From NCBI RefSeq assembly GCF_965363235.1, contig NC_134844.1:23232646-23296645 (forward strand): a DNA stretch of 64,000 nucleotides. Direction: 5' to 3'. Within the stretch, counting starts at the first letter, position 1, and the number at the start of each line of letters is the position of its first letter. Positions 2,454-51,621 of the stretch are shown in pieces. This stretch comes from Mytilus galloprovincialis. Lineage: Eukaryota > Mollusca > Bivalvia > Mytilida > Mytilidae. The position numbers and the translations under genes were made by a program. The notes under the pieces were generated by a model that saw only the letters and a program-made list of their open reading frames with translations, had not been told where the DNA came from and did no database searches.

Positions 2454-3351
2454 ACCAGATACAAGTCACATTCGAGGATAGACAATAGGATTGTGGTTTC
2501 GACAATTAGAACATATCCGTCGTCATCTGTGCAACAGTTATTCCAAAGCAGTCACTGCAACCAACTCGCAATGACTGTTTAATTTTGCAAATGGATGATT
2601 TCAACTTGGAACTTTTGGCTTTCTAAGTCTTGTAAGCAACGACTCCCTTTGAAAGGAATCATAACAGGGAATGCTAGCTTTGGAATATCGTATCAGCTGG
2701 GAGATATAGATTATACTCCATATGCAAGCCTTGTTGGAATGTTGCTTCATCTCTTATATCGTACAGTGTTCTCAACTGAACCACTATCAATTTATAGATG
2801 AAAGTCAAGACATGTGACAGAATTACATGTATTTGGTGTATCCTTTATATGATGTTCAATTGGATAGATGCGTTCAACACAGTCACTAAACTTTGCATTA
2901 TTCATTCAGAGGACATCTTTTATTTATCGAAAAATGAAAATAATAAAGATGTCCTCTGATTGTGTAATCTTCAGAAATTGCACGAAATTATTTTTTTTAT
3001 TTGATGTCTCTGATTGTTTATCTACATTAACACTTAGCTTTAAAATTAATATAATAAGTTTTCAAAATCTTAATATCTGTAATACGCAAACTCCATAAAG
3101 GCCATACGTAGCACAGATACTTATGTTCTCATTCGCTTTGCTCGTACGAACATAAAAATTGTCTTAATGATGCGTAAATAAAACAACAACTAACGTTACC
3201 TTGATACCATTTTTACTTTGAATTATCAAGAACTATACTACTAAAAGAAACTGATATATGAAAACTAAATATAAACAGCAACAACTGTCTTTTTTCTTGA
3301 ATGTCCAGTAACATATATAGTAAACCCTATACAAAACGATCGATAAAATAG
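2454..3351. other. Intergenic, nothing recognised
   Basis: AT-rich sequence with short chance frames lacking any domain-like pattern. No repeat structure stands out. Confidence 0.5.
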
Positions 3352-3998
3352 AAGATTTGTATGCCCCACCTACGATAGTAGAGTGGCATTATGTTTTCTG
3401 GTCTGTGCCTCCGTTCGTCCGTCCGTCCCTCCCACTTCACGTTACAGTTTTTGGTCAAGGTAGTGTTTGATGAAGTTGAAGTCCAATCAACTTGAAACTT
3501 AGTACACAAATTCCCCATGATATGATCTTTCTAATTTTAATGCCAAATTATAGTTTTGACCCCAATTTCATGGTCCACTGAACATAGAAAATGATAATGC
3601 GAAGTTCATGTTAAAGTTTTGGTTAAAGTTTTTGGCCAAGGTAGTTTTTGATGAAGTTAAAGTCACATCAACTTGAAACTTAGTACACATGTTCCCTATG
3701 ATATGATCTTTCTAATTTTAATTCCAACTTAAAGTTTTGACCCCAATTTCACAGTCCACTGAACATAGAAAATGATAGTGCGAAGTTCAGGTTAAAGTTT
3801 TGGTTAAAGTTTTTGCTGAAGGTAGTTTTTGATGAAGTTAAAGTCACACCAACTTGAACCTTAGTACACATGTTCCCTATGATATGATCTTTCTAATTTT
3901 AATTCCAAATTAAAGTTTTACCCCAATTTCACGGTTCACTGAACATGGAAAATGATTGTGCGAGTGGGGCATCCGTGTACTATGGACACATTCTTATT
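3352..3998 (-). mobile_element. Non-autonomous element with 181-bp tandem body
   Basis: Three copies of an imperfect 181-bp unit (anchored by AACTTGAAACTTAGTACAC) lie between short inverted ends (ATGCCCCAC and GTGGGGCAT). A (CCGT)n-type run sits just inside the left end. Orientation is taken from the related layouts at 17.6-18.5 and 26.9-28.2 kb, where a GACGGACGG-type run precedes the 3' end. No coding capacity is seen. I recall such units as abundant in mussel DNA; the superfamily is unknown to me. Confidence 0.65.
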
Positions 3999-10289: not shown

Positions 10290-10560
10290 TGACCCTGTCA
10301 CAGTATGTATGTGCCTGTCACAAGTAATTGAGTTGCTGTTGTTTGCTGTTGTTTTTATATGTTTTTTTTTCAATCAATTTTATCCATAAATCATGCCGTT
10401 ACCTTTCTCGTTTGAATTGCTTTTGATATATGTCCTTTTGGGGTCTTTAAAAGCTGACCATGTGGTATGGGTTTTACTCAATGCTGAAGGCCGTACGGTG
10501 ACTATTGTTGCAAACTTCTATGTTCTTTCATTTTTGATGGAGAGTTAATTGTCTCATTTG
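10290..10560 (+). repeat. Dispersed mussel repeat (GGCCGTACGGTGAC family)
   Basis: It contains CTCGTTTGAATTGC, GAAGGCCGTACGGTGAC and GTCTCATTTGTAATC in order, the same order as at 22455-22716. A reverse-strand copy lies near 50.82-51.03 kb and fragments near 17.2 and 20.4 kb. It has no coding capacity. Confidence 0.65.
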
Positions 10561-10858
10561 TAATCGATCTAGATCGTTTTATTCAGTATCCATTCTGAAA
10601 ACATATCCAAAGTACATGGCAATAAAAATAATAACACTGTCTGAACGGTATCTAACATAATATAAAACGAAACACGTTCTGTCATCAAATATTGAATGAT
10701 GTGCTACAGGTTTTATTACAAAACACACACAAAGACGAACGTAGTCAAAATTACAGATAAATCGATATATACATGTAATAATAAAAATTATTTGTTTTTG
10801 AATATCAAATTCGTATGAGTATCAATGTTTTACAAGGTGTGCTGAAGTGTATTTCTGT

Positions 10859-17409: not shown

Positions 17410-18728
17410 ATAGTGTATAGTGCTTTCTTTTAGTTTTTATGATGTCATTTTTATCAGTATCTATTACATTAACTTATAAATTTTTAAATTGGTCTAATGA
17501 TGTGATAGGTTCATTTGGAGGTCTATTAAAACATACAACTAAGAATCTACCAGTTTTTGTTGTAATTTTTAATAAACAGCTTCGCCATGAGCGCATGATA
17601 CGCCCTACGTCTTGTGTGGAAGTTTTATGCAATACTCATCAATAGTTTCTGAGAAAGTTTTAAACAATAACCATTTATTGTTTTTGAGACACGGCGGGAC
17701 ATGTAAAAAAAAAGATCCCCTTTTTTTATAAAATACTCAATAACTCAAAAATAAAATTTTAAGTCATCACCAAAAAGTATACAGATCTTTACAGTAATAT
17801 AACAAAGAAGTGTGTAAAGTTTTAAGCAATAATCATAATTTGTTTTTGAGATACGGCACGACATGTAAAAACCCCCTCCCCCTTTTTTACAAAATACTCA
17901 ATGACTCAAAAATGAAAATTTGAATCATCACCAAAAAGTATACAGATCTTTAGATTAATATAACAAAGAAGTGTATAAAGTTTTATGCAATAATCATAAA
18001 TTGTTTTTGAGATACAGCGCGACATGTAAAAAAACCCTCCCACTTTTTTACAAAATACTCAATAACTCAAAAATGAAATTTTGAATCATCACCAAAAAGT
18101 ATACAGATATTAAGACTAATATAACTAAGAAGTGTGTAAAGTTTTAAGCAATAATCAAGAATTGTTTTTGAGATACGATGCGACATGTGAAAAAAAAAAA
18201 CACACCCCTGTCTTAGTTACAAAGTGCCGTAACTCAAAAAGTTTAAATCCTATTTTCACCAAAAAGTATACAGATCATTTGACCATTATAAGAAATAACT
18301 ATATTAAGTTTCATGAAATTTGGATAAGTCGTTCTTAAGTTATGGTGCGACATGTTTACGCCGGACAGACAGACGGACAGACGGACAGACGGACGGAACG
18401 ACGGACGGACACCGGACATTTGTATACCATAATACGTCCCGTAAAAATTTTGACGGGCGTATAAAAACGATGGATTGAATACGAAAAGTAAACATAGATT
18501 CCGCTATTTTTGGATCATCTTCTAAATCTATAAGTTCTATTTCTTTGCTGCAAATCCTCATCTTCAAATGCATTGACCGTTCGTTATTAAGCGATTGTCC
18601 ACACACATGTCTTTGTTAAAATGACTTGTGATGTATAAGTATCAGAACCAAAAAAAAAAAAAATATTAATAAATCCATACGAAATTCCAATGAACAAACT
18701 ATTTTCTCCGTGATTTTGCAGTGTGTTA
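17410..18728 (+). repeat. Left arm of a large inverted duplication (interrupted)
   Basis: The flanking parts 17410-17570 and 18465-18728 are the reverse complement of 21690-21275. They are interrupted here by the element at 17571-18464. The arm continues beyond the foldback element at 19928-20020, matching 21275-21190. The opposite arm supplies empty sites for both insertions. Confidence 0.85.
17571..18464 (+). mobile_element. Non-autonomous element with about 161-bp tandem body
   Basis: Four to five units with 161-167 bp spacing (anchored by GAGATACGGCACGACATG) precede a (GACGGACA)n-type run and a terminal hairpin (CCCGT...ACGGG; ATACGTCCCG...CGGGCGTAT). The inverted-duplication arm at 21.5 kb reads GTAATTTTTAAAAACGATGG without it, so the borders are known to within a few bases. 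It is non-coding. Confidence 0.8.
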
Positions 18729-19927
18729 AGCCTCGGTCACACCTTACCGGACTAGCACGAACGGACGCCTTACGGATGAAAATAAAAGTTGTCCGTTGAC
18801 AAAATTGTTATCCGTTGGGAGTCCGTTGATGTACTGACCGAATAAAACGGACGTGTAACGGATGCATAACGGACACACACCGGATATACAACGTACGAGA
18901 AACGGACACGTACCTGACAGAACGGATGTCGAACGTACATCCAACGGACGAGTAACGCATAAAACGGACACCTAACGGAAGCGTACCGGATAAAACGGAT
19001 GAACAAGATATACGGACAAAAATCAAAGGCGACAATAATAATACATGTAAATCGCATAAATATTCAAAATGTTTCTGTGTAACTGCTTTTGGTTTGTTCT
19101 TCAAAATTCCGCCAAAGGGCAGTGTCTGGCCTGAATAAGAACTGCTTGATTGTGAAGACGTGCCTATACTCTAAGATCGATTATGAATAATAAGAATTCA
19201 TGAACCTTAAGAAACCTGACATACCAATAATTTTCATTTCTGACGCGAAATTTTCAATTGGCATTTATCCGTTTCAGATTCGTTCATCATCCGTTTTATC
19301 CGTTATACGTCCGGTAGAAGTCCGTTTCTCATCCGTTCAACATCCGTTTTATCCGTTAAACGTCCGGTAGAAGTCCGTTGGTGAATTTATCTTCCAGACC
19401 TCTAACGGATGTATAACGGACACGTAACGGATACAAAACGGAAAAGAAACGGACGAGTACCGTACAAAACGGACGCCTAACGGACGTTCAACGGACATTT
19501 TATCCGCTGAACGTCCGTTCAAAGTTTTGAACATGCTCAAAATTTTCCACCGGACAGAACGAACGTCGACGGATAAAACGTTCGCTTAACGGACATCAAA
19601 CTCCGGACAGTGATCGTTTCCGTTCCGGAACTATTTTCCTTTACTCCATCAATGTAGATTAGTATGCGGACCCGTATTCGGACATCAAACTCCGGACAGT
19701 GGTCGTTTCCGTTCCGGAACTATTTTCCTTTACTCCATCAATGTAGAGTAGTATGCGGACCCGTATTCAGATCGGAATGGAACCGCCGGGGAGTTTGAAC
19801 GGACATGCAACGGATCAGAACGGACGTCTAACGGATAAGAACGGACGTCTAACGGACATGAACGGATTGAAAAAAAGTTATCCGTTAGACGTCCGTTCGA
19901 ACTATCCGGTAAGGTGTGACCGAGGCT
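18729..19927. mobile_element. Foldback transposon filled with 11-bp AACGGAC words (family 1)
   Basis: The ends are long inverted repeats starting AGCCTCGGTCACACC. Both halves are packed with AACGGAYNNNN words, mostly 11 bp apart with 9- and 10-bp variants, in either orientation. The TTA at 18726-18728 is repeated at 19928-19930, and the duplicate arm near 21.26 kb has one TTA at this site, which fixes the target-site duplication as TTA. A central palindrome TTTTGAACATGCTCAAAA lies near 19522. An 89-bp unit is tandemly doubled from about 19591. There is no transposase frame. TTA is the target of PIF/Harbinger-like elements, but this class is not proven. Confidence 0.85.
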
Positions 19928-20147
19928 TTATATATAGTCTGCGCGAGATGCAAATATTCCTTTACTATTCCATTTTTAGGATTATTTGTTTACGAAATAT
20001 AAGGTAATATTGGTCATACCGGTTCTTTTTAGGTTGTAGTGTAAACGCACTGGATAAGATAAGATCGATCTCGTCCTTTAAGGATACATTATTTTTTTTT
20101 TCAAATACTTCAAGAACTTATATTAGACTTTTATAAAAAAAAAATGT

Positions 20148-21975: not shown

Positions 21976-22454
21976 CAAGAGTCCCATTCGGCGCCCCGTA
22001 GGTAGTGGGTTCGAAAGTTCGAAAGGGAAAGTTATCGAGAATGATATACCATAATGATTCCTGTCAGTAAAAAATCATTAATAGCAACATACTTTTGAAT
22101 CTAAATGGTTTATTTGTTTTGGTTAAATTTTGTAATGCGTTAACTTATTCATCGTGTTAAACTGGAAGCTAGCCTAATGGTCATTGGTTTTAGAGAAAAC
22201 GTCCAAACCAATATAACTTTTAAATAAGTTTAAAGGGTGCCGTGAGTGAGCATACAATCGACAAAAGCACCCTTTAATGAACACAAAAAAACCCCAATAT
22301 ATCTAAGAGGAGCAATATAAAAAATCTGGAACACCTAGTATTTCTTCCCACAAAAAGTGAATCAATTTATCATTCCTTTAAAGGGATTTGAAAAAAAATT
22401 AAAAATTTTCTTTTGATATTTTTTTCTTGATCTAGAATATTTCAAGACAATATG
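21976..22454. other. Intergenic, nothing recognised
   Basis: A B-box-like GGTTCGAAAGTTC near 22.01 kb could be a SINE remnant, but no matching A box was found. No gene. Confidence 0.4.
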
Positions 22455-22716
22455 CCTGTAATTCGGTGGTTGTCGTTTGTTTATGTGTTACATATTTGTT
22501 TTTCATTCATTTGTTTTTACATAAATAAGGCCGTTAGTTTTCTCGTTTGAATTGTTTTACATTGTCGTATTGGGGCCTATAATAGCTGACTGTGCGGTAT
22601 GGGCTTTGCTCATTGTTGAAGGCCGTACGGTGACCTATAGTTGTTAATGCCTGTGTCATTTTGGTCTTTTGTGGATAGTTGTCTCATTGGCAATCATACC
22701 ACATCTTCTTTTTTAT
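22455..22716 (+). repeat. Dispersed mussel repeat, fullest copy
   Basis: Runs from TTGTCGTTTGTTTATGTG through GAAGGCCGTACGGTGACC to GGCAATCATACCACATC. It serves here as the reference for the shorter copies at 10.3, 17.2 and 50.8 kb. Confidence 0.7.
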
Positions 22717-23439
22717 ATTAAGGTTTTATAAATTGAGCATGTAAAACAATTAATTGCGTAAAGAAGAGTCCGGCTATCTGTCTATCAGAAAAGAACAGAA
22801 AAATGAACGAAAACAAATGCTTTCAAAATTTTAGCTTTAGACATTTGTCATAGAAAAAGCTTCTTCGGCATTTTCATAAAATTCGATGAAGGTTCGACAA
22901 GTAGTTAATCATGTTAATGTAATTGAGAAATAACAAAATGTAAGCCCAAACTGCGACCACTTATTAATTGTAGAAAGAAATACATTTTGTCCTTAAAATG
23001 CGGGAAAATTAAAGATATAATTGTATTATTATATTGCTCTGAATACTCTTTTGATCATAAACAGTTTCTGTCCAACTTTCGTCAAATTTCACGGAGAGTC
23101 ATTCAAAAGACTTTATCCACATTCGGAACCTAAATATTGACGCCGCTTTGTCTCGCTTTTGGGACATAATTCACAGGCTCGACAAAAATACAAACAGCAT
23201 ATCGATTCTAAGCAGATAGTGAATTGCTGTAAATAGACGAAAAGTACGTAGAATTCATAGTAGATTCAGACTATTACAAAAGATTCGAACAAATATATTA
23301 AATGATCTATTTGAGTAAATTTAGTCCCTTTTTATTCAAAATTACAATCCATTGAAAAAAGAAGCACAAGGCTGATGTGCTTTAGAGCAGTTTTTCTTAT
23401 TCTATGTCAATTATTTGTTTCATTTTCAAAATTCAAGTG
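22717..23439. other. Intergenic, nothing recognised
   Basis: No coding pattern or repeat with clear limits. Confidence 0.5.
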
Positions 23440-49842: not shown

Positions 49843-51621
49843 AAGCCCCAGTCCCACTAGACCACGATCGCACCACGCTCACCGCGATCTAAAATAAATT
49901 TAGATCGTGGTGAGGTCGCGGTATGAGCGGCATGAAAATGTTAATTTTCGTTGCTTTCACGATGCTACTACGTCCTAATTACGCGTCTACAACGATCCCG
50001 CTACGATTAAACCACGTTCTCACCGCGCTTATTCTGCGACCTCACTACGCTTATAAAGATCTTTCTACGCTCTTCACGTTCTTACTACGACCATACCACG
50101 AGTTATCCGATTGCAACACGATATTACTGCGATTATAGCACGTTCTTACCACGATTATACTACGTTCAAACCGCGATCTTACTCCGTTCTCAGCAATACC
50201 GTCAATATCGTGTTTCATATTAATATAGTTCCATTCCTTCTATTTCTGATTAAAACGGAGATTTCTCAAAAACAATACATTCATGCCACCAAAATCTACT
50301 AGAACACGTGGGCGTGGTGGTAGGGGTTGATGTAGAGGCAGAGGGAGCAAAGTATGAACGCCATACTAAACTCCAAATAGTACACAAAAAACTAAAATAA
50401 AAAATAGTACAAGACTAACAAAGGCCAGAGGCTCCTGACAGGCGCAAAAATAGTGGGGTTAAACATGTTTGAGAGATCTCAACCCTCCCCCCTATACCTC
50501 TAGCCAATGAAGAAAAGTAAACGCAGAACAATACGCACATTAAAATTCAGTTCAAGAGAAGTCCGAGTCTGATGTCAGAAGATGTGACTAAAGAAAATAA
50601 ACAAAATGACAATAATACATAAATAACAACAGACTACTAGCAGTTAACTGACATGCCAGCTCCAGACTTCAATTAAACTGATACTATACACATAAGTAGT
50701 ATAATACTTGTCATCAAGAGATGTCGGAACGACCAATCAAACCTAAATTACAACCTATTGCTGGTCCATAAAGCTCAAATGACGATATTTTAGAGAACGA
50801 TAGCAGAGATGACACAGATGTGTCAATATATGTAGAAAAATGTGGTATGAGTGCCAATGAGACAACTCTCCATCAACGTAAACATCTATAAAAGTAAACC
50901 ATTATAGGCTAAGGTACGGCCTTCAATGCGGAGCCTTGGCTCACACCGAACAGCACGCTATAAAGGGCTCAAAAAATACTAATTTTAAACCATTTAAACG
51001 GGAAAAACAAACGGTCTATTCTATATAAAAACGAGAAGCATGGTTGAGCCGTTAGAGCAAATGGATAAATACATTCAGACAAACAAAATCTAGGGAGTTT
51101 TTTTTATATATTTTATGGGAAAATGACAATAAAAACAATGGTCGTAGTGTGAACGTAGTAAGGTCGTGAGAAGAGCGTGATAAGGACGGCAAGGGCGTGC
51201 TAGAATCGTACTATGGTCGTGAACAGCGTGGTAAAGTCGTAGTGGAAGCGTAGTTGGGTCGCGGTGAGAACGTGATGGTCGTCGTAAGGTCGTGATAACG
51301 TCGCTGTGAGATCGTAGCGCAATCTCTCCGAATAGAATCACGCTTTCGCTACGCTCTCGCTACGATTGTACAGCGACCTTTGCGATCTTCCTACGATCTT
51401 AGTGCGCTCTCACAACGCTTCTACTACGACCTAATTTCGCCACGACCGCACCACGATTGTTTTGAACATGTTCAAAGTTGGCCACGCTCTTCACGATCTT
51501 GAAGACCTCACCACGACCGTGGTACGACCTTACTGCGACCTACACGATCGTACCACGATCATCAAAATTTGCATTTTTTTCACAGATCGTAGTGCGATCG
51601 TGGCCTAGTGGGACTAGGGTA
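49843..51621. mobile_element. Foldback transposon filled with 11-bp CpG words (family 2)
   Basis: The ends are inverted repeats: AGCCCCAGTCCCACTAGACC on the left, the complement (CCTAGTCCCACTAGGCC) on the right, with a flanking TTA on both sides. Both halves consist of words such as ACGATNNTACC or GGTCGTNNTAA spaced mostly 11 bp apart. The palindrome TTTTGAACATGTTCAAA lies near 51461. A second mussel repeat is nested inside at about 50340-51060. At 50283 an ATG opens an Arg/Gly-rich stub (MPPKSTRTRGRGGRG), perhaps the relic of an encoded protein. The whole sits in the 5' UTR intron of oxygenase gene C. Confidence 0.8.
50340..51060 (-). mobile_element. Mussel repeats nested in the foldback transposon
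   Basis: The first part (AAAGGCCAGAGGCTCCTGAC, then CTGACATGCCAGCTCCAGAC) belongs to a mussel repeat I recall as very common. The second, about 50820-51030, is the reverse-strand copy of the GGCAATCATACCACAT repeat. Borders are approximate. Confidence 0.55.

Follow-up and report, generated by a model that had tools for sequence, protein, structure and literature searches.

The two word-filled elements in the window (the whole stretch of 64,000 nucleotides analysed here, part of contig 7 of a 1.385-Gb mussel genome to which all genome-wide counts refer) are, with near certainty, non-autonomous PIF/Harbinger transposons. With a probability of roughly 0.7, such elements carry arms that are helically phased binding arrays, probably for a MADF- or Myb-like protein. 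Four or more sets of words share a single type of end in one genome that also holds transposase-bearing relatives, so coevolution of protein and site can be tested directly, as can the requirement for helical phasing; in addition, the shared end sequence points most of about 2450 genome end sites to one superfamily. No published description of these elements was found in the available portions of the literature, although Repbase/Dfam or the library of a bivalve transposable element survey (PMC10294476) may hold them. The features of the two elements are as follows.

18729..19927, unstranded: family-1 element, 1199 bp, non-autonomous PIF/Harbinger, flanked by TTA at 18726-18728 and TTA at 19928-19930
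18729..18777, forward strand: family-1 left terminal inverted repeat, 49 bp
18835..19020, forward strand: family-1 phased word array AACGGAY, steps of 11 and 9 bp
19125..19214, reverse strand: degraded N-terminal transposase coding relic of family 1, resembling the open frame of copy L026
19260..19530, unstranded: family-1 phased word arrays, TCCGTT orientation first, AACGGA after
19525..19541, forward strand: family-1 core palindrome TTTTGAACATGCTCAAA
19880..19927, reverse strand: family-1 right terminal inverted repeat, the transposase-side end
49844..51621, unstranded: family-2 element, 1778 bp, non-autonomous PIF/Harbinger
49866..50200, forward strand: family-2 phased word array of ACGATC/ACGTTC type, steps of 11 and 9 bp
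50283..50330, forward strand: possible gene-2 start relic in family 2, MPPKSTRTRGRGGRG, then a stop
50857..51040, unstranded: dispersed repeat within family 2, placed by reading
51140..51560, unstranded: family-2 phased word arrays, GGTCGT orientation first, ACGAY after
51460..51476, forward strand: family-2 core palindrome TTTTGAACATGTTCAAA

Ends, insertion sites and copies

The preliminary description proposed an end consensus common to both elements, and a search of the mussel genome for the 15-mer AGCCYCRGTCMCACY located 2452 places (1233+1219), compared to 12 (4+8) for a reversed-pattern control. The consensus holds in general but not at the right end of family 2, which reads TACCCTAGTCCCAC or TACCCCAGTCCCAC from outside in nearly all of 30 loci. 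Element ends begin with AGCC, where PIF/Harbinger ends have A or G as first base, the exception being the same family-2 right end, which begins with T. Terminal inverted repeats measure 49 bp in the family-1 window copy and in copy L012, 35 bp in the family-2 window copy, 28 bp in L009 and 40 bp in L020, while that of L016 extends over 65 bp at 74% identity. With terminal repeats of 49 and 35 bp, the arms of the window elements share words rather than forming a long inverted repeat.

A flanking TTA had also been described for both window elements. It is present on both sides of family 1, but for family 2, cutting the ends at AGCC and GGGTA leaves TAA as the left flank and TTA as the right one. 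Across all families, 21 of 30 copies are flanked by TWA at either end, and the same triplet occurred on both sides in 12 of these 21, with 12.0 expected by independence; target duplication judged from flanks alone is thus no better than chance, and the flanks alone are uninformative because TTA dominates. Two nested family-1 insertions provide empty sites, where the joined flanks match uninterrupted family-1 sequence best with exactly 3 bp (TTA) removed, establishing a 3-bp TTA target duplication in family 1. L024 and L026 are nested insertions of family-1 copies within family-1 arrays, and nesting may be favoured because family-1 words such as CTAACGGA hold a TAA target. Family-1 ends repeated at close range were seen in L022, L024, L025 and L026.

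Family-1 copies are mostly about 950-1200 bp long, with copies of 268 and 1643 bp also found. Eight of them (the window copy and seven fetched) are 90-97% identical position by position, the window copy sharing 95-97% identity with six of the seven others and 91% with the seventh. For family 2, 30 loci, window copy included, were matched by the 181-bp right end, and 24 of the 29 others align to the window copy over at least 1 kb at 92-99%, an identity biased upward by the choice of loci as best matches. Because copies are near-identical position by position, the words must already have been set in the parent element, and evolution of the words in concert within each family, as previously suggested, was not seen as an ongoing process in the copies. 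Family-3 ends (AGCCCCAGTCACACT) occur at 173 places, versus 1 for the control; family-3 copies are often 390-430 bp, though longer ones exist.

Several other repeats were observed in and around these copies. At L010 300-3150 (C1:33688856-33692304), two family-2 copies lie right end to right end in a 2.85-kb palindrome whose arms are 93% identical. A dispersed repeat is common to the window (22443-22721 and 10303-10564), to many family-2 interiors and to an autonomous family-3 element (L102 2177-2457); in many other family-2 loci, the stretch corresponding to 50857..51040 matched L102 2246-2458. The family-3 copy L009 contains a broken stretch (2870-3650) adjoining a AAGTAATT-type repeat; it resembles a Penelope-like reverse transcriptase, and the two pieces tried gave no Pfam match.

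Transposases, second genes and the core palindrome

Family-3 copy L098 contains broken pieces of a PIF/Harbinger-type transposase, and a 45-aa piece of it matched 69 genome places; at four of the best matches the frame is open over 447 aa. The best 17 of these 69 places were compared for ends and arms. Within the part of the genome covered by the listed ends, the exact 15-bp family-3 end was found in eight of nine places, seven of them having it at a distance of 780-781 bp and the eighth, L098, at 755 bp; the ninth place, C6:53644690, belongs to another clade and has no family-3 end. Same-orientation right arms lie at 5852-5865 bp in five of the 17 places, at 5808 bp in one and at 1837 (L098), 3184, 6576, 15848 and 17232 bp in five more, with none among those listed for the remaining six. 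Two autonomous-type elements (C4:41970908-41988921 and C5:76322901-76339529) have arms about 16.6-18 kb apart, which suggests large insertions.

The longer, transposase-encoding member that the preliminary description proposed to look for is the family-3 element at C4:55822843-55829474, which spans 6632 bp by its coordinates and has TTA on both sides. It was read as a left part of 4.5 kb (L102) and a right part of 0.58 kb (L103), leaving about 1.7 kb unread, and it contains word arrays in both arms and a second gene facing the transposase. The 447-aa open frame of L102 matches DDE_Tnp_4 (7.1e-32) and Plant_tran (1.9e-10), and a search of the PDB with the transposase sequence returned no match. 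Four full-length transposase frames lack stops and are 98-100% identical, making recent activity plausible. A second transposase group is about 52-54% identical to the family-3 transposase.

Families 1 and 2 are connected to this system by different evidence. Over 61 aa, an open transposase N-terminal stretch in family-1 copy L026 is 44% identical to L102 (E 6e-12). The window relic at 19125-19214 (reverse strand) is 67% identical to the L026 open frame over 30 aa; at the DNA level the relic aligns to L026 with a score of 114, where the best of 200 shuffles reached 26. Judged by these alignments, the relic is a decayed version of the L026 transposase stretch. Pfam searches with short relic pieces gave nothing useful. 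Family 2 is linked to PIF/Harbinger by its ends, its core and a possible gene-2 start, the RG-rich character of which (50283..50330) resembles a start also present in family-3 copy L009. A direct search among 30 DDE_Tnp_4 loci of 150 listed (1041 candidates), with 1.5-kb flanks that are perhaps too short, revealed no arrays; one locus had a partial end match (L067) and one a weak AT-rich terminal pair (L078), and there were otherwise no shared ends.

The second gene of family 3 is spliced-looking and lies on the strand opposite to the transposase. Matches to a 51-aa peptide from it number 11, and every one adjoins one of these transposases on the opposite strand (compared by eye). No Myb domain PF13873 was found in family-3 elements among the 142 matches listed (150 of 263 candidates scored), so PF13873 was rejected as the family-3 gene-2 domain, and none of the 19 matches to the MADF domain PF10545 falls in a family-3 element. 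Of the 19 MADF hits in the genome, 14 have a relative of the family-3 transposase within 6 kb, and each of the 14 faces this neighbour from the opposite strand, a pairing expected about 0.005 times given the 29 of 95 transposase hits that were typed, or about 0.016 times given all 95. Two of these 14, C1:67379473 and C8:14974609, accompany core-bearing transposases. The family-3 gene-2 peptide found no place in the second transposase group at E 0.001 while the transposase did, and gene 2 thus seems to change faster.

The core palindrome reported for both window elements recurs in hundreds of copies: TTTTGAACATGYTCAAA has 1653 genome matches (822+831) compared to 0+0 for the control, perfect palindromes being counted on both strands. 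The core is off-centre: among measured copies its distance from one end is 146-200 bp (172-200 bp in family-1 copies L013 and L026, 146-161 bp in family 2 and about 176-193 bp in L104). This distance rises to 382 bp in the window copy of family 1, where an additional duplicated stretch is present. The core decamers GAACATGCTC/GAACATGTTC (window 19525-19541 and 51460-51476) fit the p53-family half-site RRRCWWGYYY. A single core for the class describes families 1 and 2 but not family 3, where L102 has a different palindrome, CGTTTGTATTG-N7-CAATACAAACG, at a similar place, 150-178 bp from that end. In L104 (211 bp), an end beside one of the transposases with the core upstream, TAA is followed by TGCCCCCGTCACACTAG / GCCCCCGTCACACTAG, the words and finally the core. 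When 55 of 95 transposase hits were compared with 50 of 59 palindrome sites, an exact 18-bp palindrome, TTTTGAACATGTTCAAAA, was found 234-404 bp upstream of the projected start in seven of the 55 hits, with 0.015 expected; some second-group transposases, for example C6:68134032 and C2:52749418, are without the exact palindrome. The palindrome's position ahead of the transposase gene points to a putative role in regulation or nucleation; it is probably a dimeric regulatory or recruitment site.

It is possible, though we consider it unlikely, that the words are bound directly by an N-terminal helix-turn-helix of the transposase and not by a second protein. A helix-turn-helix is predicted in PIF transposases in the available part of one study (PMC9710019), and the palindrome and arrays adjoin the transposase gene. 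However, the terminal ends, which the transposase has to recognise, are nearly constant while the words differ between families, and the binding activity reported in that available text is that of the Myb-like protein (PMC9710019). We therefore favour an accessory protein as the putative binder.

Word spacing and helical period

The described words are seen in both window elements, and CG autocorrelation confirmed the mostly 11-bp spacing described for each by a peak at lag 11, with 40 versus 9.2 expected in family 1 (z 10.8) and 49 versus 6.4 expected in family 2 (z 18.1); none of 500 dinucleotide shuffles matched the lag-11 value of either element. Across three control stretches of the window, every listed lag held at most 3 CG pairs, and when the window was scanned at 300 bp with 6 as the lag-11 threshold, the two elements alone were picked out. 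The ratio of observed to expected CpG is 1.59-2.0 in the arms, compared to 0.77-1.05 in the three control stretches. As a general rule or class mark, however, the 11-bp peak fails in family 3, in which steps are mostly 10 bp, the best lag is 10 in six of eight entries and lag 11 is weak. The steps of the word chains are 11, 9 and 10 bp in family 1 (29, 6 and 3 steps), 11, 9 and 12 bp in family 2 (43, 10 and 1) and 10, 11, 12 and 9 bp in family 3 (35, 13, 5 and 2).

Spacing near one helical turn, by comparison, is supported. The best period over a spectrum of 7-16 bp is 10.1-10.9 bp in all 12 arm entries (arm borders were set by eye and two entries are subsets), indicating that the shared feature is about one helical turn and not 11 bp. 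Seven of the 12 entries exceed 95% of shuffles, all at 10.1-10.6 bp, and the other five peak at 10.4-10.9 bp. The family-1 arm at 18835..19020 taken alone has a spectral peak at 10.5 bp that was equalled by 53 of 500 shuffles, the power of the family-2 arm at 51330-51560 divides between peaks near 10 and 11 and all but vanishes at 10.5, and the period of the short L104 is not significant (206 of 500 shuffles). For word chains, a mean near 10.4 bp is partly built in, since the chain finder accepts only steps of 9-12 and 18-22 bp. Shuffling the order of the 11- and 9-bp steps significantly lowered coherence in only one of 15 word chains, so a phase-correcting placement of the 9-bp steps is not shown.

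The idea that families with different words share one type of end proved correct for families 1, 2 and 3. The word consensus is AACGGAY in family 1, RCGAYCTTA-like in family 2 and TACGTTTY-like in family 3, while a fourth word set (L104, only 9 units) is ACGTCCTT-like. An A before the CG is the commonest letter in all four word sets, and the remaining letters differ.

The arrays might instead be selfish short tandem duplications with no binding role, in which case the spacing would be a by-product of a duplication unit of 10-11 bp. The order of the 9- and 11-bp steps is not clearly arranged, as this explanation would allow, and the window family-1 copy plainly contains a duplicated extra stretch at 19600-19790 (recognised by reading). 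Nevertheless, several patterns render it doubtful: step length varies between families (11 with 9 versus mostly 10) while the period stays at 10.1-10.9 bp, an element whose transposase frame is open has arrays in each arm and in either orientation, and no arrays were detected by period score in the 30 DDE loci of other Harbingers, whose ends may lie beyond the 1.5-kb flanks that were scored. Period scores at those loci had a median of 2.15 and a maximum of 8.0 (L070), while 15 background chunks of the window reach 6.3; L070 was rejected as an array since, despite its high score, none was seen on reading.

A further alternative is that a CG rhythm of 10.5 bp serves to place nucleosomes or keep them out, or to make the ends easy to bend, with no specific protein involved. 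The nucleosomal dinucleotide period is 10.2-10.6 bp, and the period of the arrays is near it. This explanation is nonetheless improbable, as the family-1 word is specific, with as many as 1.85 bits at positions next to its CG, beyond what a dinucleotide rhythm needs, although the other families are weaker in this respect (0.3-1.6 bits). Arrays of words bound by a second protein remain the preferred reading.

Proposed mechanism and known systems

In the proposed mechanism, the window elements have retained the parts required by the machinery: near-identical ends, which the transposase would cut, with insertion at TTA/TAA, and subterminal words centred on ACG. These words follow at about one per helical turn, so that many copies of a DNA-binding protein could align on one face of the DNA. 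We infer from sequence that the likely binder is the MADF- or Myb-like second protein encoded by the autonomous element, whose role would be to recruit the transposase to the ends. The palindrome may contribute as a putative dimeric regulatory or recruitment site; it sits about 150-190 bp inside the transposase-side end and, in relatives, upstream of the transposase gene. The transposase and the ends would both change slowly, the ends staying constant because the transposase does, and words would differ between families because the gene-2 proteins differ, consistent with coevolution of protein and site. A more specific version, to which we give somewhat less than even odds, is that the tips cut by the transposase are constant while the accessory MADF/Myb-like protein assembles in a filament-like manner along one DNA face on a phased array of tens of related words, with words and protein switching jointly between families, step length free to vary (11 with 9, or 10 bp) and only the helical face conserved.

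End recognition in PIF/Harbinger transposons is described as little characterised in the available part of PMC9710019. According to the same portion, Harbinger transposition requires both proteins, end binding was shown for one element, and a subterminal motif of 9 bp is the target of the Myb-like gene-2 product in zebrafish Harbinger3_DR (PMC9710019). The accessible text of a second study reports that the Myb-like protein binds at the terminal repeats and leads to excision by the transposase, and that in fish Harbingers gene 2 diverges faster than the transposase (PMC9179366). Each mussel word may be a putative gene-2 motif like that of Harbinger3_DR, repeated tens of times and phased.

The mussel elements resemble PIF/Harbinger transposons, represented by Harbinger3_DR and its relatives in the available sections of three papers (PMC9710019, PMC9179366, PMC4482050), in their DDE_Tnp_4 transposase and in having a second gene, which runs on the other strand and encodes a MADF domain in relatives. 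They also share the 3-bp TTA target duplication and short terminal inverted repeats starting with A, and the autonomous member is 6.6 kb long compared to a published PIF/Harbinger average of about 4.1 kb. Galileo, a Foldback-like element of the P superfamily, is similar in having many sites near its ends, multiple binding sites having been shown in its repetitive arms, but as far as the available text indicates it differs in its inverted repeats of over 1 kb and its THAP-domain transposase, and it belongs to another superfamily (PMC3688188). Long inverted repeats form most of a Foldback/Galileo element; here they are 28-49 bp (65 bp at 74% in L016). The separate foldback transposon class of the preliminary description, suggested by arms full of inverted and direct words, is refuted for families 3 and 1, and for family 2 through its ends and core, by terminal inverted repeats of just 28-49 bp in five elements, the linked DDE_Tnp_4 transposase with its MADF partner and the TTA duplication.

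Transposons of the En/Spm-type CACTA group have many short CG-containing motifs near their ends, in both orientations, that are bound by an accessory protein encoded by the element. The mussel elements resemble them in their CG-containing subterminal motifs in both orientations and differ from their CACTA ends and their transposase; we know of no helical phasing in the subterminal repeats of that group. Where the gene-2 protein of a known PIF/Harbinger element binds a subterminal motif (shown in the available text of PMC9710019), the mussel elements have phased words whose binding is putative, by analogy. Unlike known PIF/Harbinger transposons, each mussel element holds tens of words, about one per helical turn, and the words switch between families while the ends stay.
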